A program made the position numbers and the translations under genes. Positions 41,050 to 55,382 of a stretch of DNA of 64,000 nucleotides are shown one piece after another. This stretch comes from Fimbriimonadaceae bacterium (GTDB taxonomy: Bacteria; Armatimonadota; Fimbriimonadia; Fimbriimonadales; Fimbriimonadaceae). The DNA is taken from NCBI GenBank assembly GCA_019454105.1, contig CP075364.1, positions 1,553,362 through 1,617,361 of the forward strand, written 5' to 3'. The notes under the pieces were generated by a model. It ran no database searches and had not been told where the DNA came from. It saw only the letters and a list, made by a program, of their open reading frames with translations. The stretch's first letter is position 1. Each line of letters opens with the position of its first letter.

Positions 41050-41334
41050 ACGCCGAGCGACCGGGTACTCGGACTTATCAAGATCCGGCCCTGACGTCCG
41101 TGCGAGCTTCTCACGTGCCTCAGGCCGCCCCAGCGCGGCCCGAGGCTCTTGGCGCCTCCAGGCACGCGCAGTCCAGCCCAGAACTGCTCAATGCCCAAAC
41201 ACAACTACCAGCTCCGCTGAACCTTAAAGCTGGCTTAACGGAAGTGGCGCAGCGTGAATCCGTTCCGATGTGAGGTGTCTCGTGCAGGGGCTTTGACCTG
41301 CCCGAAACACCTCCACTTTGGAGAGGACTCACCC

Positions 41335-42345
41335 ATGCGATCGATCATTACCCTGGCCCTCGCGGCCGTCACCGTGTCTGGCTTCGCCCAGTACAACTCC
41401 GGCAACCTCGCCGTCTCCATCGTTGGAGACGGCGGCACGACCAATGGCAACATGGCCGTCTCTATCCGGCAGTACACGACCGCCGGCGCCCAAGTGGGCA
41501 GCGACCTCAGCCTGGTCGGACTCGCGGGCGGCAGGAACATCACCACCACCTACGGTGAGACCAGCGAAGCCAACCTGAGCCTCTCGGGCGACGGCCGCTA
41601 CTTCATGATCGCTGGGTACGACCTTGGAGTGCGCGACGCGAGCTTCAGCACCATTAGTTCGAACCGGGCTGTCGCCCGGATCGACTTGGCCGGCAACATC
41701 GATGTCGGCGACGACTTCAAGCCCGCGAACGGCGACGGCATCCGCAACGTCTGGTCCAATGACGGAAGCGACTACCTGATCACGGGCGGCGACATGGGCC
41801 TGCTTCGGGGGAACTTCCCGAGCGACCCGACCCAGGTCGTCCCGGCCGAGATCAGCACCCGCACCGTGAAGGGTTACAAGAACGGCTTCATCTTCAATGG
41901 CTCCAACGCCTTTCAGGGCGGCAACGGGTTCTCTTTCTTCGACGGAACGAACGTGACCGAGCTCTTCGCCACTCCCGGCGGGGCCAGCGCCCGCGACTTT
42001 GTCGTCGTCGATCCCAACACCCTCTATCTCGCCACGAGCACGGCCGGCGTCGGTCTTGTCAAGATGGTCTTCGACGGCACGAACTGGGTCGAGGCTTACC
42101 GCCTCACCGGCACCGGCATCTCCGGCGTCGCTTATGACGGAACAAGCGTCTATGCCACCAACTCCAACGGCATCACCCTCCTGTCGACCATCGACACCGG
42201 TTCCGGATTCGGAGCCTGGAACACCCTTGCTACCGCCGCGACCAACACCCGCTTCCGGGGCGTCGAAGTCGTCCCCGAGCCTGGAACCATGATCGCCCTC
42301 GGCGCGGGCCTCGCCGCCCTCGTCGCCCGCCGCCGACGAAAGTAA
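41335..42345 (+). CDS. PEP-CTERM exported protein
   Basis: The ATG at 41335 opens a signal peptide (MRSIITLALAAVTVSGFAQ); residues before it in the longer frame are not plausible. 336 residues with repeated strands (NMAVSIRQYTT, GDGRYFMIAGYDLGV, NAFQGGNGFSFFDG, GISGVAYDGTSVYATNSNG), likely a beta-propeller. It ends with VPEP, a hydrophobic segment and RRRRK, the sorting signal for an exosortase. It is isolated, with a stem-loop 21 bases after its stop. Confidence 0.85.
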   Translation: MRSIITLALAAVTVSGFAQYNSGNLAVSIVGDGGTTNGNMAVSIRQYTTAGAQVGSDLSLVGLAGGRNITTTYGETSEANLSLSGDGRYFMIAGYDLGVRDASFSTISSNRAVARIDLAGNIDVGDDFKPANGDGIRNVWSNDGSDYLITGGDMGLLRGNFPSDPTQVVPAEISTRTVKGYKNGFIFNGSNAFQGGNGFSFFDGTNVTELFATPGGASARDFVVVDPNTLYLATSTAGVGLVKMVFDGTNWVEAYRLTGTGISGVAYDGTSVYATNSNGITLLSTIDTGSGFGAWNTLATAATNTRFRGVEVVPEPGTMIALGAGLAALVARRRRK

Positions 42346-43628: not shown

Positions 43629-43926
43629 CCACGTCTGGACCGCGCGGGCTTGCCCTCAGGAGGAGTGCGAGGGCTTGCCCTCGCTGTGGAGTGGGCGGCT
43701 TGCCGCCCCTACCCACCCTTAATGGAGCGCGAAGGCTGCCAAGGGGGCGGAGTGCATAGGCCACTTAGGCGGAGTGCGAGGGCTTGCCCTCGCTGTGGAG
43801 TGGGCGGCTTGCCGCCCCTACCCACCCTTAATGGAGCGCGAAGGCTGCCAAGGGGGCGGAGTGCATAAGCCACTTAGGCGGAGTGCGAGGGCTTGCCCTC
43901 GCTGTGGAGTGGGCGGCTTGCCGCCC
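43629..43926 (+). repeat. 109-bp tandem repeat with REP palindromes (second REPtron, 3' side)
   Basis: Units of 109 bp start at 43662 and 43771; a third, partial unit runs from 43880 to the RAYT stop. Each contains two palindromes: GCGAGGGCTTGCCCTCGC (for example 43667-43684) and GGGCGGCTTGCCGCCC. The two full units differ at only a few bases (for example GCATAGG against GCATAAG), so the amplification is recent. Confidence 0.92.
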
Positions 43927-44490
43927 CTAACGGCTCGGCATCACCGGGTCGTACTCGTCTGCCACTTGCACATCTTGGACGCTGAACGCCCGGGTCGTCT
44001 TGACAAAAGGCCGATCGTCACAATGGCTGTCGAACTCCAAGGCCGAGCACCATCGATAGTCGTGTGACCGCTTGACAAGTCCGTGACGCACCGGGTTCTC
44101 GTGCACATAGTTGAGGCGGCTGTAGAATGCGCGAGAATCATCAAGGTATGTGTCCCAATACTGGTGCCATACCTTGCGGCCCTCTTGCCCTGTTGCAGCG
44201 TTGATCAACCGTGATGTTTCACTGTGGAGGTGGCGGATCAAAGCGTTCAGATTCTGCGGGCTCTCGCTTGTCGCGACAAAGTGATAGTGGTTCGAGAAAG
44301 CAGCATAGCCAAACAAGTCCCACTCGTACCGGCGGGTAAGCACCTTCAAGCTCCCTACAAACATGTCGAGAGCTTCTTCGGTACGGAAGACATGCTCTTT
44401 TCGGTAAGTGCCAGCCGTCACCATGTATGCACCAGGCTCCACCGTCAAATGAGCCGGCGCGTGAGGATGTAGTCTGACCCCTCTGGCCAT
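43927..44490 (-). CDS. Second REP-associated tyrosine transposase (Y1_Tnp family)
   Basis: The start chosen is the ATG at 44490 (MARGVRLHPHAPAHLTVEPG); the longer frame to 44613 translates REP DNA. 187 residues. The HUH motif is FSNHYHFVA (about residue 74) and the catalytic Tyr is in LNYVHENPVRHGLV (about residue 138), followed by DYRWCSA, the family's W-S-S-like block. The N-terminus YMVTAGTYRKEHVF matches the T-x-x-T-Y-x-x-x-x-F pattern. It belongs to a subgroup clearly different from the RAYT at 22157, and its REP sequence (GCGAGGGCTTGCCCTCGC) also differs. The stop codon abuts the repeats, and more REPs lie upstream at 44519-44604. Confidence 0.9.
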   Translation of the reverse strand: MARGVRLHPHAPAHLTVEPGAYMVTAGTYRKEHVFRTEEALDMFVGSLKVLTRRYEWDLFGYAAFSNHYHFVATSESPQNLNALIRHLHSETSRLINAATGQEGRKVWHQYWDTYLDDSRAFYSRLNYVHENPVRHGLVKRSHDYRWCSALEFDSHCDDRPFVKTTRAFSVQDVQVADEYDPVMPSR

Positions 44491-44518
44491 CTCAGCCACA
44501 CTGGGACAGTACCATGTC

Positions 44519-44604
44519 GGCGGGCAAGCCCGCCAATCCACAGCGAGGGCAAGCCCTCGCACTCCGCGCCTCAGGAATGCAAGCCCTCGCCCTCTGTTCC
44601 AAAG
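44519..44604 (+). repeat. REP palindromes upstream of the second RAYT
   Basis: Contains CGGGCAAGCCCG, GCGAGGGCAAGCCCTCGC and a degenerate GCAAGCCCTCGCCC, the inverse-loop form (CAAG) of the palindromes downstream of the gene, so the two sides face each other. Confidence 0.85.
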
Positions 44605-44686
44605 CCTGAGCAAGCCTACATGCCCTAATCGGATCTTGTGACGGCCAACAACGAGGTGGGAACAGCGAGAGATCAGCCGTGTTACC

Positions 44687-44865: not shown

Positions 44866-45630
44866 CTAGGCGGCGTTCCTCCGCCGGCGGGCCAAAGCGG
44901 CGATCCCAAGCCCCAAGGCCATCATCAAGCCCGGCTCGGGCACCGAGTTCACCCCATAGGCGGCGTTCTCGCGCAGTTGGAACAAGGGCCCCATGCCGAA
45001 GCCGTTGCCTGGGTTCACGGCCCAAGAGTCGAACGCAGTGCCCGCCCCAAGCACGTTGGGAAGGCTGAGCAACATGTTGTGCTGCAGGATGAACGTTTGT
45101 CCGTTAACCTGGAAGTCGTGCTCGGGGGCCATTCCGATCCAGAACTGACCAACTCCTGTGTTAAAGTTGACTCCCATCTCGGCCGAATAAGCCTGTGAAG
45201 TGGCGCCAGTGCCGAACTGCTGGGCATAAGTCACTTGGCTGTTGGGCACGAAGGTGGTAGCGACAGCGAACTGATCGAGGTTGGCCGAGGAATTGCCAGC
45301 GTCTGTTGGCGACCTCCAAACGCTTACCCGCCAACCGCGGATGTTTGTTGTCTTGAAGTTGGGGCTCGTGGCCTCGAACATGACACCAACGTCAGTGACG
45401 ACCCCGTTCGAAACAAAGTCGTCGACGACAGTGCTGTTGAACTGACTAAACCCTGGAATGATCTGCATGGACCCAAAGGTCGACATACTGGAAAGGTTTT
45501 GTGACAACCATGTGTTGCCAACCGAATGGCCGTGATCCATGGAGTTGTACCCAGGGACGCGCTGCCATTGAGCAAAGGAAGTGGCGCAAACCGCGCCGAG
45601 AGCGACGATCGTGAGGATAGAGTTTTTCAT
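44866..45630 (-). CDS. PEP-CTERM exported protein
   Basis: 254 residues. Signal peptide MKNSILTIVALGAVCATSFAQ, split at ATSFAQ. The mature part has beta-rich sequence (VTDVGVMFEATSPNF, IRGWRVSVWRSPTD, FWIGMAPEHDFQV) resembling lectin-like or jelly-roll domains of PEP-CTERM proteins. It ends with VPEP, GLMMALGLGIAALA and RRRR. A terminator hairpin follows. The 284 bases upstream, to 45915, hold no other feature that I can identify and should contain divergent promoters. Confidence 0.85.
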   Translation of the reverse strand: MKNSILTIVALGAVCATSFAQWQRVPGYNSMDHGHSVGNTWLSQNLSSMSTFGSMQIIPGFSQFNSTVVDDFVSNGVVTDVGVMFEATSPNFKTTNIRGWRVSVWRSPTDAGNSSANLDQFAVATTFVPNSQVTYAQQFGTGATSQAYSAEMGVNFNTGVGQFWIGMAPEHDFQVNGQTFILQHNMLLSLPNVLGAGTAFDSWAVNPGNGFGMGPLFQLRENAAYGVNSVPEPGLMMALGLGIAALARRRRNAA

Positions 45631-45914: not shown

Positions 45915-47267
45915 ATGATTCGTCCACTCAGCGCGATCGCCCTCCTCGTTGCTTGTTTGTTCGCCTACGGTCAGTCGCCCGAGCGCGGTGAGCCGTTGCC
46001 CCGGCGAGGGGCCTTGGGACTCCAGATAGTCGCCATGAGCGCGGAAGAGGCCAAGGAAGCGGGCCTGTCGGCTGGAGTCAAGGCGGGAACTGTCTCGCCG
46101 GGCCTGACATCCGAGTCATTGGGCGTCCAACAGGGCGACTTGCTACTCAGTCTCAATGGCGCCCCCCTCGCCACTGCGGCGACTGTCACGGCGGCTGTGC
46201 GCTCCATGTCCGGCGGCGACAAGGTGACGCTCGAAGTCCTTCGGGAAGGGAAGAAGCTCTCGCTCACCGGAACCCTTGCCCCCCGGCCCCGACAGCAGCC
46301 AGACGGTTTCCAGGTGCACTACGACCAGGTGGTCTCAAAGGGCAAGCGGATCCGAATCATCGCCACCACTCCTGAAGGCGACGGCCGCTTTCCGACTGTC
46401 TTCTTGATCGGCGGGATCGGTGGCTATTCGGTGGACGGCGAGTTCGCCTCCATCGCTTATGGCAAGGTGCTTGGGCCGATCGCGCGGGCCGGGTACGCGA
46501 CCGTGCGCATCGACAAGCCAGGGCAAGGCGACAGCGAGGGTCCGGCCTACTCCGACCTCCTCTTCGACGACGAGCTCGACGCCTATCTACAGGCCTTGCG
46601 GCTGGCCAAGACGCTGCCGTATGTCGACAAGGAACGGATCGCGATCTTTGGCCACAGCATGGGCGGGGTCTTCGGCCCCTTGGTGGCGAGCCAAGAGAAG
46701 GTTGCCGGGGTGGCCGTGAACGGGACGCTGGCCAAGACATGGGCCGAGTACTGGCTGGAGAACTCTCGCCGCCAGTCGTTGCTCGCGGGCCAGGCGCCCG
46801 GAGAGGTCAACGCTCAAATGCAAGAGCTCGCCAAGCTGACGGCCGCCCTCTTCATCGAGATGACGCCGTTGACCAAGGTCCTTGAGACAAGGCCCGACCT
46901 GGCCGAAATCGCCAAGGCCACTTCGCCCGACGGAAAGACGATGTCCGGCGTGAACGTCGCCTTCTTCCAGCAACTTGCCCAGAGGAACCTCGTCGAGGCC
47001 TGGGAGAAGACCGACGCCCAAGTCCTGGCGCTCTGGGGAGAGAACGACTTCATCAGCACGCAGTGGGACCACGAGCACATCGCCTTTACCGTCAACCGCC
47101 TGCGCCCTGGCACCGCCGAGTACAAGTCCCTGCCGAACAGTGACCATGGGTTCTCGCGTACCGAGTCTTTCCAAGACAGCATGGCCAAATGGGGCCGGCC
47201 CGGAGCCGAGCACAACCCGAACATCGAGGAGACCTTGATCGACTGGCTCAGGAAAACGCTCAAGTAA
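45915..47267 (+). CDS. Secreted alpha/beta hydrolase with an N-terminal PDZ domain
   Basis: The ATG at 45915 (a TTG three bases earlier is in frame) opens a signal peptide (MIRPLSAIALLVACLFAYG). About 450 residues. Positions 25-115 form a PDZ domain (RRGALGLQIVAMSAEEAKE, LGVQQGDLLLSLNGAPL). Then an alpha/beta hydrolase fold with the oxyanion/lid region VFLIGGIGGYSVDG, nucleophile elbow IFGHSMGG (Ser), an Asp in LALWGENDFIS and a His in LPNSDHGFSRT. It is probably an exported or periplasmic esterase or peptidase. The unusual point is the PDZ in front, which could recruit it to a C-terminal peptide. Confidence 0.82.
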   Translation: MIRPLSAIALLVACLFAYGQSPERGEPLPRRGALGLQIVAMSAEEAKEAGLSAGVKAGTVSPGLTSESLGVQQGDLLLSLNGAPLATAATVTAAVRSMSGGDKVTLEVLREGKKLSLTGTLAPRPRQQPDGFQVHYDQVVSKGKRIRIIATTPEGDGRFPTVFLIGGIGGYSVDGEFASIAYGKVLGPIARAGYATVRIDKPGQGDSEGPAYSDLLFDDELDAYLQALRLAKTLPYVDKERIAIFGHSMGGVFGPLVASQEKVAGVAVNGTLAKTWAEYWLENSRRQSLLAGQAPGEVNAQMQELAKLTAALFIEMTPLTKVLETRPDLAEIAKATSPDGKTMSGVNVAFFQQLAQRNLVEAWEKTDAQVLALWGENDFISTQWDHEHIAFTVNRLRPGTAEYKSLPNSDHGFSRTESFQDSMAKWGRPGAEHNPNIEETLIDWLRKTLK

Positions 47268-47380
47268 CGTCTCAACAAACCCAGGGCCTGGGCTCTGTGA
47301 CCAATGTCATTGGCCCAGACCCTCGGGGCGCCCTATCGTTTGGTCACCTCCCGAATTCAAAGGGAGCGAGGAGACAGACG

Positions 47381-48403
47381 ATGCAAAGAAAACTGGTTCG
47401 GATCGCCGCCCTGGCCGCTTTGGCCACATTGCCCCTCTTCGCCCTGGCTGACGAAAAGCCTATCGGCAAGCAAGTCAAGGGAAAGGAATCTGTGACGATC
47501 CCTAAGAGACAAGGCCCGAAGAAGCGGGTCGCCGTCGCCCCGATGGACATCGCCAGACGCGACAACTCGGGCTTCCAGGAGTTGATCGCCGTCCTGAAGT
47601 CGACCAACAACATCAACACTCTTAGCGACGTCGGGCTCAAAATGACGTCGATGCTGACCACGGCCTTGAATGAGTCCGGCCACTTCGTCGTCCTCGAAAG
47701 GCAGGACTTCGGCGACATCAAAGGCGAGATGGAACTCACCGCCGAATACGGGAACCTACAGACGCAAGTCAAGAAGGGCAACGTGCTCGGGGCGCAGATG
47801 ATCATCCGGGCCGAGGTCACCGAGTTCACCGACAACAAGAACCGCAAGGGAGGCGGCCTGAGCCTGGGCCCGATCCAGATCGGAGGGGCCAAGAAGGTCG
47901 CGGCCGTGACCATCGACCTCAAGTTCGTCGACCCGAACACGTCGCAAGTGCTTCACACGGCCAAAGCGGAAGGCACCTCGGAGTCGAGCGCTGCCGCCGT
48001 CGCCCTCAACATTGGGAGCCTGGGCTTGGCCGGGGGAGAATCGAAGGAGCAGCCGATCGAGAAGGCGACGCGGGACGCCCTGGGCAAGGCCGTCCTCGTT
48101 GTGATCGACCGGATGCAGTCTGTGCCTTGGGAGGCGCGCGTGGCCAAGGTGGAGGCCGACGGCACCCTTCTGCTCAACCGGGGGGCCAATGACGGGGTCG
48201 CGATCGGCGAGTCGTTCGCCGTGTTCGCTCCGGGGGAGTCGGTCATCGACCCCGAGACGGGCGAGTCATTGGGCCGTGGCGAGGACACTTGGATCGGTGA
48301 CTGCACCGTCACCTGGGTCAGCGACCGGATCGCCAAGGCCCGGCTCTCAGGGGCCGCTTCCCAGCCCGTCGCCACGAACTTCGTCGTCAAGACGCGGCGA
48401 TGA
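47381..48403 (+). CDS. CsgG-like curli-assembly family exported protein
   Basis: The ATG at 47381 has GAGGAG eight bases upstream. 340 residues. Signal peptide MQRKLVRIAALAALATLPLF, cleaved near ALADEK. The body follows CsgG: VAVAPMDIARRDNSG, MTSMLTTALNESGHFVVLER, LGAQMIIRAEVTEF, AAVTIDLKFVDPNTSQVL, ALGKAVLVVIDRM. There is no lipobox Cys, unlike E. coli CsgG. The C-terminal 90 residues form an extra beta domain (VEADGTLLLNRGANDGVAIG) of the type that binds or senses in FlgT/CsgG relatives. It is probably an outer-membrane secretion or assembly protein. No curli genes are adjacent. Confidence 0.75.
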   Translation: MQRKLVRIAALAALATLPLFALADEKPIGKQVKGKESVTIPKRQGPKKRVAVAPMDIARRDNSGFQELIAVLKSTNNINTLSDVGLKMTSMLTTALNESGHFVVLERQDFGDIKGEMELTAEYGNLQTQVKKGNVLGAQMIIRAEVTEFTDNKNRKGGGLSLGPIQIGGAKKVAAVTIDLKFVDPNTSQVLHTAKAEGTSESSAAAVALNIGSLGLAGGESKEQPIEKATRDALGKAVLVVIDRMQSVPWEARVAKVEADGTLLLNRGANDGVAIGESFAVFAPGESVIDPETGESLGRGEDTWIGDCTVTWVSDRIAKARLSGAASQPVATNFVVKTRR

Positions 48404-48433: not shown

Positions 48434-48439
48434 TACAAT
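48434..48439 (+). promoter_or_regulatory. Possible -10 element for the riboswitch transcript
   Basis: TACAAT lies between the terminator-like hairpin and the riboswitch and would start transcription a few bases before it. No good -35 sits at 16-18 bases; TTGGGG at 48406 is 22 bases off. Confidence 0.35.
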
Positions 48440-48454
48440 GCAAAGGACAAGAGT

Positions 48455-48560
48455 GTTCGCCCGCAGGGGGAGCCGCAAGGCTGAGAGTTTCCTGACCCCA
48501 GGAATGACCCCTAGAACCTGATCCGGTTAGCACCGGCGGAGGGAATGCGGAGCGCGGAAC
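48455..48560 (+). promoter_or_regulatory. TPP (thiamine pyrophosphate) riboswitch, THI element
   Basis: Conserved core in order: GCAGGGGGAGCC (48463 on), the invariant GGCTGAGAG, a P3-type arm CCTGACCCCAGG, then ACCCCTAGAACCTGATCCGG, TTAGCACCGGCGGAGGGAA. The P1 stem is closed by GTTC/GAAC and CCGCA/TGCGG (48455-48465 with 48546-48560). All strongly conserved THI positions that I can recall (CTGAGA, ACC, GAACCTGAT, the GG pair after it, and GAGGGAA) are present. The next gene, 48 bases on, is a pseudopilin, not a thiamine gene. A small hairpin, GCCGC-TGTCA-GCGGC (48575-48589), lies before its start and could be the expression platform. Confidence 0.93.
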
Positions 48561-48607
48561 GAGACTTCCGGGCTGCCGCTGTCAGCGGCGGCTCTTGGCC
48601 CAAAGCC

Positions 48608-49399
48608 ATGAAAAACCGGAACCAAGCCTTCACCCTGATCGAACTGCTCGTCGTGATCGCGATCATCGCCATCCTCGCCGCGATCCTCTTCCCCGTCTTC
48701 GCCCAGGCCAAGGAGTCGGCCAAGCTGACCGCCGACCTGAGCAACTCCCGCCAGATCGGACTCTCCGTCAAGCTCTACCTCGGGGACTCGGACGACACCA
48801 TGCCGATCTTCTACGCTTATAACACCAAGACTCCCGACGGCCGCGACGCCTGGCACGGCCTTCCCGAGCACAAAGGCATCGAGGTCCAGCTCGCGCCCTA
48901 TCTCAAGAGCCGCGACGCCTTCCGCTCGCCGTTCGACAACGGCGGGCCCTTCCAAGAAGCCGAGAAACCCGGCTCGACCACCTACTGGGACACCTATGGC
49001 TCGAGCTACCGATTCATGGCGTGCCTCTACACGGTCGTGCCGGGGGAGAGCAGCCAGAACAACGTCCTCTTTGGCCCTGAGGACGCCCGCACCGTGACCG
49101 AGAGCCAGATCGAGTACCCCAGCGAGACCCGTGTCGTGCGGCTCGAGGTGTTCCCCTTCTTCGGTCGGGACGTGACCAAGGACGCCTGCGACCGGTATGG
49201 ATGGGACTGCGACCCGCCCTATGACTACTACCGGAAGTGGGGCAACCGGGGCGGGGGCGTCGTCCATGCCGACGGCAGCGCCCGGGTCGTGACCTCTGCC
49301 GCAGCCTTCGACCAAGGCCGGGTCAACCCCAAAGGCGACCGCTCTGGCGACGCGAACCCCGACTCCTGGAGCGGGACTTGGTACGGAGTCTGCGACTAG
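48608..49399 (+). CDS. Type IV pseudopilin-like exported protein with H-X9-DG end
   Basis: The start chosen is the ATG at 48608 (MKNRNQAFTLIELLVVIAII), because this is the class N-terminus; another ATG at 48545 lies inside the riboswitch P1 stem and would add 21 odd residues. 263 residues. The prepilin peptidase site is QAFTLIEL, cleaved before F with Glu at +5. A helix LAAILFPVFAQAKESAK follows, then a globular domain, and GGGVVHADGSARVV at the end, the H-x-x-DG motif of Planctomycete/Armatimonadota pseudopilins (DUF1559-like). These proteins are numerous, and their substrates or assemblies are unknown. The riboswitch suggests thiamine-dependent control (inference). Confidence 0.85.
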   Translation: MKNRNQAFTLIELLVVIAIIAILAAILFPVFAQAKESAKLTADLSNSRQIGLSVKLYLGDSDDTMPIFYAYNTKTPDGRDAWHGLPEHKGIEVQLAPYLKSRDAFRSPFDNGGPFQEAEKPGSTTYWDTYGSSYRFMACLYTVVPGESSQNNVLFGPEDARTVTESQIEYPSETRVVRLEVFPFFGRDVTKDACDRYGWDCDPPYDYYRKWGNRGGGVVHADGSARVVTSAAAFDQGRVNPKGDRSGDANPDSWSGTWYGVCD

Positions 49400-49714: not shown

Positions 49715-50719
49715 ATGGCGCGACGGCGGGCAAAGAAGGGCTGGCTCTGGGCCGTGGTTCTGGCCGCACCGGCCGCTCTCGGGCTCTACGCGGCCTCCGC
49801 CCTCCGACCCGCCAAGCCGGGCCCGGCCAAGACCTTCCGCATTGAGAAGAACCTCGGCCTCTCCCAAGCTTTAGGGCTTCCGGAGGTCGCGCCCGCAGTC
49901 CGCGACCGCTCGGTCTGGGCCGCCTATGCCAACCTGAAAGGGCAACCCCCGACCGTCTCCGAAGGCACCTATCGCGTCCGGCCCGGCATGACCCCGGACG
50001 AGCTCTTCCGGGCCCTCCGCAGTCCGATCCGGCAGATGGTGCGCCTGCCCGAAGGCTGGTGGATCGCCCGCACCGCCAGAAGGCTCGAGGAGCAGGGCGT
50101 TTGCCGCGCCGAAGATTATGTCAAGGCCGCAGCTCAACCCGAGAGGTTCCGAGTCACGGCCGGTTTTCCCTTGCCGAACGGCTCGCTCGAAGGCTATCTT
50201 TTCCCCGACACGTACGACCTTCCGCCTCTCCTGGGTGCCGAGGCCGTCGTCCGTCGGCAGCTGGAAGCCTTTGCCAAGCGGGCCGCGTCCCTGGAGTCCG
50301 ACCCGGAGAGACTGCACCGGGCCGTCATCGTCGCCTCGCTGGTGGAGCTGGAGGCGGGCGTGGACGAAGAGCGGGCCAAGATCGCCGGGGTCATCGAAAA
50401 CCGCCTGGCCCGCAGGATGCGGCTCGAGATTGACGCCACCGTGCTTTACGCGATGCAGGAGTGGAAGCAGCTCGGACCTGGAGTGGTGCGCACTGTCAAG
50501 AGCCCCTTCAACACCTATCTCAACTTTGGGCTTCCGCCGGGGCCGATCGGCTCGCCTGGCCTGAAAAGCCTGGAGGCCGCCCTCAAGCCTGACCAACATG
50601 GGTACCTTTTCTATGTGGCGCGGCCAGACCGGACCCACTACTTCGCCCGGACCTATGAGGAGCACCGGGCCAACATCCGGCGGGCCAGGCTCGAACGGCA
50701 AGCCCAGGGGAGCCCGTGA
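49715..50719 (+). CDS. mltG: Endolytic murein transglycosylase MltG
   Basis: 334 residues with one N-terminal membrane helix (WLWAVVLAAPAALGLYAAS). YceG/MltG signatures: a LysM-like segment (VSEGTYRVRPGMTPDELF), LEGYLFPDTYDLP, catalytic Glu in VIVASLVELEAGVDEE, VIENRLARRMRLEIDATVLYA in parts, SPFNTYLNFGLPPGPIGSPG and HYFARTYEEH. It cuts nascent glycan strands at the inner membrane. Its stop overlaps the GTG of the next gene (GTGA). Confidence 0.94.
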   Translation: MARRRAKKGWLWAVVLAAPAALGLYAASALRPAKPGPAKTFRIEKNLGLSQALGLPEVAPAVRDRSVWAAYANLKGQPPTVSEGTYRVRPGMTPDELFRALRSPIRQMVRLPEGWWIARTARRLEEQGVCRAEDYVKAAAQPERFRVTAGFPLPNGSLEGYLFPDTYDLPPLLGAEAVVRRQLEAFAKRAASLESDPERLHRAVIVASLVELEAGVDEERAKIAGVIENRLARRMRLEIDATVLYAMQEWKQLGPGVVRTVKSPFNTYLNFGLPPGPIGSPGLKSLEAALKPDQHGYLFYVARPDRTHYFARTYEEHRANIRRARLERQAQGSP

Positions 50720-51810
50720 GGCACGTCAAACCGGGCACCTATGCCCGCCACACCATGCCCGGCGCGCTCCGGCGGTTCAGCCCGTCCGAGTCGCTCGCGC
50801 GGCTCGAGGACGTCGACCTGGAAGGCCTGCGCGCCTCGGGAAAGCGGCTGATCCTACTCGACGTGGACAACACGCTCATCCCCTGGCGAACCGAAGAAGT
50901 CCCCGATGCCACCCACCGATGGATCGAGCAGGCCCACGCCCTGGGTTTTGAGCTTTGCGCGGTCAGCAACACCAGCAAGCCAGAGCGGCTCGCGCGGCTT
51001 TGCGAGTCGATGAGGATCGGATTCGTCCGGGACAAGAACAAGCCCAGCCGCCGTATGTTCCTGCTCGCGATGGAGCGGCACCGGGCCACGCCAGAGGAGA
51101 CCGTCATGATCGGCGACCAGCTCTTGACCGACGTGCTCGGGGCCAACCGCTCTAGGATCGACGCGATCTGGGTGCGCCCAATGGCCAAGCAAGAGTTCCT
51201 TGGAACAAGGATCATCAGCAGGCCGATCGAACGGGTCATGGCCCGGTTGCTGCACCGCTACTTCCAGGCTGCACCGACCGACGGACCCGATCCCATGAGC
51301 CCTGGGCTCTATTCGCGAGAGACTCTGGCCCAATTTGGCAAGTTCGCGGTCGTCGGCGTCGGCAGCACGCTCATCGACGCCGGGCTCATGTTCCTGCTGA
51401 TGTTCTTTGTCCCTTGGGACGGGCGGCCGCTGGGACAGGCGCTCGGCGAGTGGGCCTTGGCGGCGTATCCCGATCTCTTCCGGTTCGCGGCGGCCCGGCC
51501 CAGCGACGCGGCCGTCCCCATCCTGAAGATCCCGGCGACTGCGGCCGCGATCCTCAACGGCTTCTATTGGAACCGGCGGTGGACGTTCGAGGCGCGCGAT
51601 CACGCCTTGCGCGCCCGCCAGTTCCGGCGCTACTTCGTCGTGGCGGTCGCGGCCATGGTCGTGAACGCGGCGGTCACCACGGTCTTCAACAACATCGTGC
51701 CGGGACACCCGAAGCAAAGCCTGCTCGTCGCCCTTGTTATCTCCACGGTCGTGGCCGGGGTCTTCAACTTCTATTTTCAACGTAAATGGACGTTCGCTCC
51801 GCCCGAGTGA
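50716..51810 (+). CDS. YqeG-type HAD phosphatase fused to a GtrA membrane domain
   Basis: 364 residues from the GTG overlapping mltG. Positions 1-185 form a YqeG/HAD-IIIA phosphatase: LILLDVDNTLIPW with both catalytic Asp, LCAVSNTSKPERL, VRDKNKPSRRMF and VMIGDQLLTDVLGANR. Positions 195-364 form a GtrA/DPMS-type domain with four membrane helices: QFGKFAVVGVGSTLIDAGLM, ILNGFYWNRRWTFE, NFYFQRKWTFAP. GtrA proteins move lipid-linked sugars; YqeG homologues dephosphorylate phosphatidylglycerol phosphate or act near aroE. The fusion suggests a phosphatase working on a membrane-bound phosphate ester. It is followed by aroE, as yqeG often is in Firmicutes. Confidence 0.85.
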   Translation: MRHVKPGTYARHTMPGALRRFSPSESLARLEDVDLEGLRASGKRLILLDVDNTLIPWRTEEVPDATHRWIEQAHALGFELCAVSNTSKPERLARLCESMRIGFVRDKNKPSRRMFLLAMERHRATPEETVMIGDQLLTDVLGANRSRIDAIWVRPMAKQEFLGTRIISRPIERVMARLLHRYFQAAPTDGPDPMSPGLYSRETLAQFGKFAVVGVGSTLIDAGLMFLLMFFVPWDGRPLGQALGEWALAAYPDLFRFAAARPSDAAVPILKIPATAAAILNGFYWNRRWTFEARDHALRARQFRRYFVVAVAAMVVNAAVTTVFNNIVPGHPKQSLLVALVISTVVAGVFNFYFQRKWTFAPPE

Positions 51811-54585: not shown

Positions 54586-54758
54586 GGGCCAAGACTTTAC
54601 CAGGCTCTCTGCGCGCCCCCGTAACTTCGCCAGGAATCGACGAAAATGTCTGTCGGAGGCCCGGCGGAGCCCCCATCGAGCCAAAGGTTTGGGCTATCAT
54701 GTTTCGGAGTGTCGTGCACTGGTGCGGCCTCAAATGCTGTCCTCTAGGGAAGGTTCTT

Positions 54759-55382
54759 ATGATCCTCAGTGCCAAGCGGCTCATGGCCGTAGCTTTCGCC
54801 ATTACGGCGGTGTCTGTCCAAGCCCAGGTCAACTTGGGTATCGGGGAGACCGTCGCCGTTCCGACCGTAGACGTCCCGACCCTCACGATCGTTGACGTCA
54901 TGACCAGTCCGTTCCTCTCGTCTGCCAGCGAGTTCAAGGGAACCCTCACTTCGATCGTCGCCCGCCTCGGAGATTCGAACGGCGACCTCATCTTCGCGTA
55001 TGTCATCTCCAATCGGAACGACAGCGATTCGAACGTGATCGACTTCTCAATCCTCGGGTGGACCGGCTTCTCGAGCATCGTTGCCCAGCACGACGCCACG
55101 TCGCTTACCGGGAACTTCGGGCAATCGGCTCTGACAGCCTCCCGAACGGCGAGCGCTCTGACGTTCACGTTCTCGGACGTACCTGGCCAAGCCCTGGCTC
55201 CTGGCACCAACTCGACCGTCTTCTGGGCGCTGTCCGATGCTTCGGAATACACGAAGGACGCCACCTGGGCCATCAATGGGTTTGTGGCCACGGCTCCGGC
55301 GTTCGCACCGGTTCCCGAGCCTGCATCCTTGGCTATGCTCGGTCTAGGGCTCGCCGCCTTAGCCCGTCGCAGACGGAACTGA
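54759..55382 (+). CDS. PEP-CTERM exported protein
   Basis: The ATG at 54759 is preceded by AGGGAAGG. 207 residues. Signal peptide (MILSAKRLMAVAFAITAVSVQAQ, cleaved after QAQ). The mature domain is beta-rich and Ser/Thr-rich (TLTSIVARLGDSNGDLIFAY, IDFSILGWTGFSSI, ALTFTFSDVPGQALAPG), like other jelly-roll PEP-CTERM proteins. It ends VPEPASLAMLGLGLAALA followed by RRRRN. A weak stem-loop (GGGGCC/GGCCCC, 55396-55417) follows before pyrR. Confidence 0.83.
   Translation: MILSAKRLMAVAFAITAVSVQAQVNLGIGETVAVPTVDVPTLTIVDVMTSPFLSSASEFKGTLTSIVARLGDSNGDLIFAYVISNRNDSDSNVIDFSILGWTGFSSIVAQHDATSLTGNFGQSALTASRTASALTFTFSDVPGQALAPGTNSTVFWALSDASEYTKDATWAINGFVATAPAFAPVPEPASLAMLGLGLAALARRRRN

Follow-up and report, generated by a model that had tools for sequence, protein, structure and literature searches.

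A TPP riboswitch-linked pseudopilin of Armatimonadota, a probable component of thiamine salvage that may capture thiamine for an importer

Known parts of vitamin uptake systems include TonB receptors, ABC binding proteins, and ECF components. Several thiamine salvage genes are controlled by TPP, such as those for ThiV, ThiXYZ, and the outer-membrane receptor Omr. ThiV has been described as a homologue of the PanF symporter under THI-element control (PMC2211319), and in another study as a sodium:solute symporter with a TPP riboswitch upstream, the likely HMP transporter of Pelagibacter (PMC11452348). The operon of Armatimonadota described below likewise contains TPP-controlled salvage genes, and its third gene also encodes an SSS-family symporter, in this respect like ThiV (PMC11452348, PMC2211319). 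Unlike the loci of ThiV, ThiXYZ, and Omr, the first and most constant gene here encodes a prepilin-type protein. We know of no transporter of which a prepilin-type protein forms a part.

Among pilins, a precedent is ComZ of Thermus thermophilus, whose large additional domain binds DNA, the substrate that is imported (PMC6561018). The substrate considered for the pilin of the window (the whole stretch of 64,000 nucleotides analysed) is a different one, and the comparison with ComZ concerns the proposed role, not sequence or fold. PulG/COG2165-type (PF07963) pseudopilins of Armatimonadota share a prepilin leader, a predicted N-terminal helix, and an ADGH-type motif near the C-terminus; the TPP-linked ortholog group is distinguished from the others by its score against our profile A1, its own C-terminus, and its riboswitch. 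Armatimonadota carry dozens of pseudopilin-like genes per genome, to our knowledge without assigned individual functions, and one of them is now tied to a defined nutrient by regulation, operon, and pathway gaps. Searching mostly open-access literature turned up no account of a pilin gene behind a TPP riboswitch, nor any publication on a riboswitch together with Armatimonad or Fimbriimonas. The kind of riboswitch is already known (RF00059) and its aptamer is the same here, while the constant target differs; what is new is a pilin as target, together with a salvage operon headed by it, and this gives a classic riboswitch a new target class. We consider it probable that the gene encodes a TPP-repressed pseudopilin of thiamine salvage in Armatimonadota, one that would capture thiamine for an importer.

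The original prediction, made from the letters of the window, was that a TPP riboswitch stands before a pilin-like gene. The covariance search bore this out with a full-length match above the cut-off, which was the single RNA-family match in the whole window (cmscan, Rfam 15) and the one RF00059 match in the window genome (2,741,041 bases, single contig). The two parts of P1 pair as had been proposed, and the gene order is also as described, with a pseudopilin followed by mltG and a YqeG-GtrA fusion and no thiamine gene adjoining (Table 1). The in-frame ATG at 48545-48547, suggested as a start that ligand binding might hide, is indeed part of the 3' strand of P1, but the idea of a hidden start did not hold up: a start there is unlikely, since it would add 21 residues before the conserved short prepilin leader, and the orthologs begin at or near the position of 48608. 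Immediately 5' of the riboswitch is a gene for a CsgG-family protein (47189-48403; PF03783, 120.6 bits). No promoter came out of a sigma-70 scan, and a TACAAT at 48434-48439 was given no weight.

Table 1. Features of the riboswitch-pilin locus (positions in the window).
Feature	Position	Strand	Details
TPP riboswitch aptamer (THI element)	48456-48562	+	RF00059 67.2 bits (gathering 54.3), full model 1-105
Aptamer P1, outer	48455-48458 / 48557-48560		GTTC pairs with GAAC; begins at 48455
Aptamer P1, inner	48461-48465 / 48546-48550		CCGCA pairs with TGCGG
Leader hairpin	48570-48594	+	11 pairs, GGGCTGCCGCT-GTC-AGCGGCGGCTC; 25 nt; -19.2 kcal/mol; 13 nt 5' of ATG
Pseudopilin, 263 aa	48608-49399	+	PF07963 37.3 bits (cut-off 21.2); TIGR02532 30.9 bits (cut-off 16.3)
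mltG	from 49715		downstream of pilin
YqeG-type HAD phosphatase fused to GtrA-type membrane domain	50716-51810		after mltG

RF00059 was searched in the window genome and 60 relatives (61 genomes of the order), which yielded 55 TPP places (54 above the cut-off) in 52 genomes. The first gene 3' of the aptamer encodes the pilin at 42 of these places: family f1, to which the window belongs, contributes 34 of its 37, family f5 all seven, and f3 its only one. Sister family f2 lacks the pilin and has thiC after the aptamer at all nine of its places (eight by motif, and G049 by thiC profile). A profile (A1) was built from 40 pilins, namely that of the window and 39 from other TPP-linked loci that are 44-79% identical to it. 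It recovered 43 ortholog copies in 42 of the 61 genomes, each scoring at least 291.9 bits, versus at most 145.8 bits for the next best pilins among the matches listed for the 61 genomes. For 42 of the 43 copies, a same-strand riboswitch lies no more than 600 nt upstream, at 46-293 nt from the profile start (median 68), and the exception is the second member of a tandem pair in G038. What follows the pilin varies among the genomes of the order (by eye), which leaves the pilin as the constant target in this group.

The four TPP places of the order that are left comprise one second copy each in G006, G015, and G024, plus the sole site of G039 (f4). In G024, the second element (L054, G024:C29:51556-51665; 53.6 bits, slightly below the cut-off) stands before a pilin apparently without its N-terminus, about 3.6 kb upstream of an intact TPP-pilin pair, and is perhaps a decaying duplicate. 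The second elements of G006 (L053, C18) and G015 (L050, C9), both of f1, precede frames of 231 and 580 aa, respectively. Neither a pilin nor an obvious thi gene comes after the G039 riboswitch (L279, C33; 72.8 bits); the next gene, at 159 nt, encodes a 227-aa membrane protein, and the genome has TPK and no ThiC match. The pilin-less TPP site of G039, whose genome keeps TPK, and the second TPP copies without an intact pilin in G006, G015, and G024 are points against a role of the pilin in salvage.

The hairpin between the aptamer and the start codon of the window gene is presumed to be the expression platform. Its region scored z -2.4 against mononucleotide shuffles, and z was below -2 in 35 of 41 homologous leaders (aptamer to start; 41 of the 42 leaders were used, and G019, with a 274-nt spacer, was left out). 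In six of the 41, a run of at least four T lies at or near the end of the hairpin, as in a terminator. The free fold of 48450-48640 did not surpass that of shuffled sequences (z -0.96). Pairing of P1 with the left arm of the hairpin gave a weak signal over all 41 leaders (111 of 5000 permutations were as good), somewhat better in f5 (33/5000) and absent in f1 (1356/5000). This weak switch test, together with TPP binding that is predicted for the aptamer from its sequence, leaves slight room for a decayed or re-purposed switch, whose aptamer would no longer bind TPP or which would turn the pilin on instead of off. We regard such a switch as highly improbable, as full-length RF00059 matches above the cut-off recur at dozens of loci and all nine TPP elements of the sister family precede thiC.

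The pilin-bearing genomes have gaps in the thiamine pathway. No ThiC was found among the order's 42 pilin genomes; of the 61 overall, 10 have it, i.e., nine of the 14 f2 genomes and G012. This bears on an arrangement considered in the original prediction, in which thiC would normally follow the riboswitch and the pilin would have been inserted here alone: with 34 of 37 TPP sites of f1 leading to the pilin and thiC in none of the pilin genomes, it fails in the window's family, and the loci of the relatives rule out an insertion between riboswitch and thiC in the window genome alone. Full-length ThiG is also missing from all 42 pilin genomes and occurs in 14 of the 61 (13 of f2 and G012, at least 360 bits; other matches at most 31.6 bits). 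ThiE above the cut-off has the same distribution, with none in the 42 pilin genomes and the same 14 genomes overall, and G022, a pilin genome, has a match of 21.7 bits. TPK, whose substrate is free thiamine, is kept in 40 of the 42 pilin genomes, and the two without it are drafts of 73-74% completeness. With ThiC, ThiG, and ThiE absent and TPK nearly always present, the pilin-bearing relatives are very probably unable to synthesize thiamine and dependent on its uptake. For Fimbriimonas ginsengisoli, thiamine synthesis was described as 'completely absent' with TPK alone left in its genome report (PMC4072686).

Over the phylum, thiC above the cut-off is present in 109 of 291 genomes and in five of the 136 with the pilin (Fisher P 6e-33, with genomes that are related and not independent). 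Besides these, G093, also with the pilin, carries a fragmented thiC whose pieces score under the cut-off, and G133 has a thiC fragment of 61 positions. The five genomes with pilin and full thiC (G061, G081, G082, G092, and G105), as well as G093, possess two TPP riboswitches each, indicating that the pilin is not merely a remnant of thiC loss.

The arrangement is conserved over a phylum. The ortholog was detected at E <= 1e-50 in 136 of the 291 Armatimonadota genomes, in 12 families. Outside the order, 54 loci were fetched, which hold 56 ortholog copies from 51 genomes, and RF00059 scored above the cut-off at 52 of them. Another locus (L214, identical to L248, in G115) scored 52.6 bits, just under the cut-off, and the last (L226) has lost its upstream side at a contig end. 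Each of the 52 riboswitches precedes the pilin on the same strand, with 33-251 nt to the profile start except in two cases (753 and 1535 nt), which were measured to the farther copies of tandem pairs. In G127, the riboswitch (58.3 bits) is directly before the ortholog. Against A1, complete ortholog copies reached at least 244.6 bits, versus at most 139.5 for the remaining complete pilins of the fetched loci. A tree built from 93 orthologs required 13 label changes for 12 groups (minimum possible 11) and so largely tracks the families, as expected of mostly vertical descent.

A pattern combining the aptamer core and the prepilin motif was also scanned over 84,980 species genomes and returned 48 stretches; the exact pattern misses some spacings, and the scan does not show absence elsewhere. 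A prepilin frame was at the expected place in 46 of the 48, of which seven are cut by the stretch end and the other 39 were used in building A1. These 46 stretches are labelled Armatimonadetes, Fimbriimonas, Fimbriimonad-, or Chthonomonas in 42 cases, 'bacterium' in three, and 'Methanoregulaceae archaeon' in one. RF00059 matched nine of the 11 stretches on which it was tested. The other two of the 48 stretches, pattern matches outside Armatimonadota (L093 and L102), had no RF00059 match and were set aside as chance.

In other Armatimonadota, the pilin heads an operon with TPK and a symporter. Outside the order, TPK (TIGR01378) is directly behind the pilin on the same strand, with a gap of 17-219 nt, in at least 29 of 56 copies (at least 29 of 51 genomes), and the other 27 places are without an adjoining TPK among the TPK matches listed. 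An SSF sodium:solute symporter gene is present behind TPK in at least nine of the 20 regions fetched outside the order, where some contigs end early. Two copies of the symporter, both from inside the order, match PF00474 (36.0 and 45.2 bits, cut-off 22.8), and the best NCBIfam equivalog of four copies was PanF for two operon copies and PutP for two from inside the order, none of them at the cut-off. From its place in the operon, the symporter may transport thiamine or HMP.

Inside the order, TPK adjoins the pilin at none of the 43 copies. The symporter profile matched 30 of the 61 genomes, none of them in f2, and 27 of the 30 copies are directly after TPK. In the window's order, the salvage operon is thus split, with the riboswitch at the pilin. 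The TPK of the window genome (G000:C1:2662431-2663003; TIGR01378 77.0 bits, cut-off 76.4) is away from the pilin, as in the rest of its lineage, which explains why no thiamine gene is nearby. The profile search of the 61 genomes found no copy of the TPK-linked symporter in the window genome, and the order's 42 pilin genomes include 14 without one. The link of the riboswitch to thiamine metabolism genes (TPK, thiC) is thus seen in homologous operons and absent in the window. Two readings offered in the original prediction can now be revised. The first was that a riboswitch had been recruited to an exported pilin-like protein; the TPP-pilin pairing is real, but the pilin is no stray recruit cut off from thiamine metabolism. 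The second was that a thi gene had been lost or replaced between switch and pilin, and TPK is indeed absent locally, but its place in the operon is behind the pilin and it lies elsewhere in this lineage.

The gene order also bears on whether the pilin is merely a hitch-hiker between the switch and its real targets, TPK and the symporter, without any role in thiamine metabolism. Pilin-like frames are abundant (9-154 first-look candidates per genome) and a chance placement is conceivable, yet the riboswitch stays with 42 of the 43 copies in the order where TPK never adjoins the pilin, the ortholog has been kept over 12 families, and a second pilin subfamily occurs at the same place. We therefore give this reading very little weight.

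This second subfamily came from 19 other TPP loci read outside the order (the sites of G067, G216, G238, G239, and G248 are among those left out). In five of them (G214, G215, G249, G257, and G258), none of whose genomes has thiC or the ortholog, a pilin directly follows the TPP element. These pilins are 50-66% identical to one another, and their A1 scores of 120-140 bits are in the range of other pilins. In G257 and G258, TPK and a symporter come after the pilin. No pilin was seen, by reading, behind the switch in the other 14 loci, several of which lead to apparent Thi4-type or ThiG-type thiazole genes (by eye).

The pilin family leaves another use to be weighed. The TPP-controlled pilin could build an appendage with which a B1-starved cell attaches to surfaces or to B1-producing neighbours, with no binding of the vitamin. 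The window protein is of a prepilin-type family, and the pili of Fimbriimonas ginsengisoli, which has 79 reported pseudopilin genes, were proposed in its genome report to serve attachment (PMC4072686). We find such a foraging or adhesion role unlikely, as the tight operon with TPK and the symporter suggests a molecular salvage step, and one dedicated ortholog is used among many pilins.

The protein itself carries the N-terminal cleavage/methylation motif (PF07963, TIGR02532) and ends in GTWYGVCD, as do most orthologs. Its match to the GspG/PulG major pseudopilin model TIGR01710 (24.7 bits) is below the cut-off of 88.85. The AF2 model (pLDDT 93, pTM 0.86) has a helix at residues 10-60. With the whole model, VIA-align against the PDB listed pilins only (best PilA4, Z 5.3), and hmmsearch of the PDB sequences matched N-terminal parts of pilins and nothing else. 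Foldseek against the PDB gave no match at E <= 0.001 for the whole model or the globular domain alone (best E 0.1), and VIA-align of the domain alone gave nothing at Z >= 2, which is not proof of a new fold. The fold therefore gives no hint to thiamine binding.

Among the residues kept in 95-100% of 92 orthologs are H88, Y98, F105, D110, Y126, R178, E180, W211, and D222, with H88, D110, R178, and D222 at 100% (rounded) and E180 at 95%. This aromatic and charged set would suit a small cationic ligand, a suggestion and not evidence. The conserved polar residues H88, D110, R178, E180, and D222 could also belong to a processing enzyme, whose exported domain would act on phosphorylated or damaged thiamine outside the cytoplasm before uptake, e.g., as a TPP/TMP phosphatase, and the downstream TPK does require free thiamine. 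No enzyme family or fold was matched, and we think an enzymatic role quite improbable.

Our preferred reading is salvage by capture, in which ligand binding, the sign of control, and the action of the pilin are what we infer. At low TPP, the leader would stay open and the pilin would be made. Once its prepilin leader is cleaved, the pilin would be anchored in the inner membrane or form part of a pseudopilus, and its globular domain would lie in the periplasm or outside. This domain would capture thiamine or a thiamine vitamer and pass it on to the inner-membrane importer, the ThiV-like symporter where present. TPK would then make TPP, which would close the switch, probably via the hairpin between the aptamer and the start codon. 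The most specific form of this reading, that thiamine is caught outside the inner membrane by a dedicated TPP-repressed pseudopilin acting as a vitamin receptor that feeds the symporter, is put forward tentatively, as somewhat less than an even chance. If true, it would be an acquisition route unlike TonB receptors, ABC binding proteins, and ECF components, and two pilin subfamilies would have been recruited as vitamin receptors. Binding of thiamine by the pilin domain is a testable claim. The distribution of the locus suggests that a pilin is used for vitamin B1 acquisition across much of the phylum, and predicts a route of vitamin B1 supply for many mostly uncultured Armatimonadota.

Elsewhere in the window, a G+C-rich unit of 109 nt occurs in three tandem copies (100, 97, and 63%) at 43655-43981. 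They adjoin a small IS200/Y1-type transposase gene (43930-44613; PF01797, 25.3 bits), and an inverted copy of a part of the unit is found at 44523-44567, early in the called transposase frame. We take this combination of repeats and Y1-type transposase to resemble a REP-associated transposase with its repeats. Finally, PEP-CTERM sorting motifs (PF07589) are present in three proteins within about 14 kb (41254-42345, 44866-45630, and 54699-55382).
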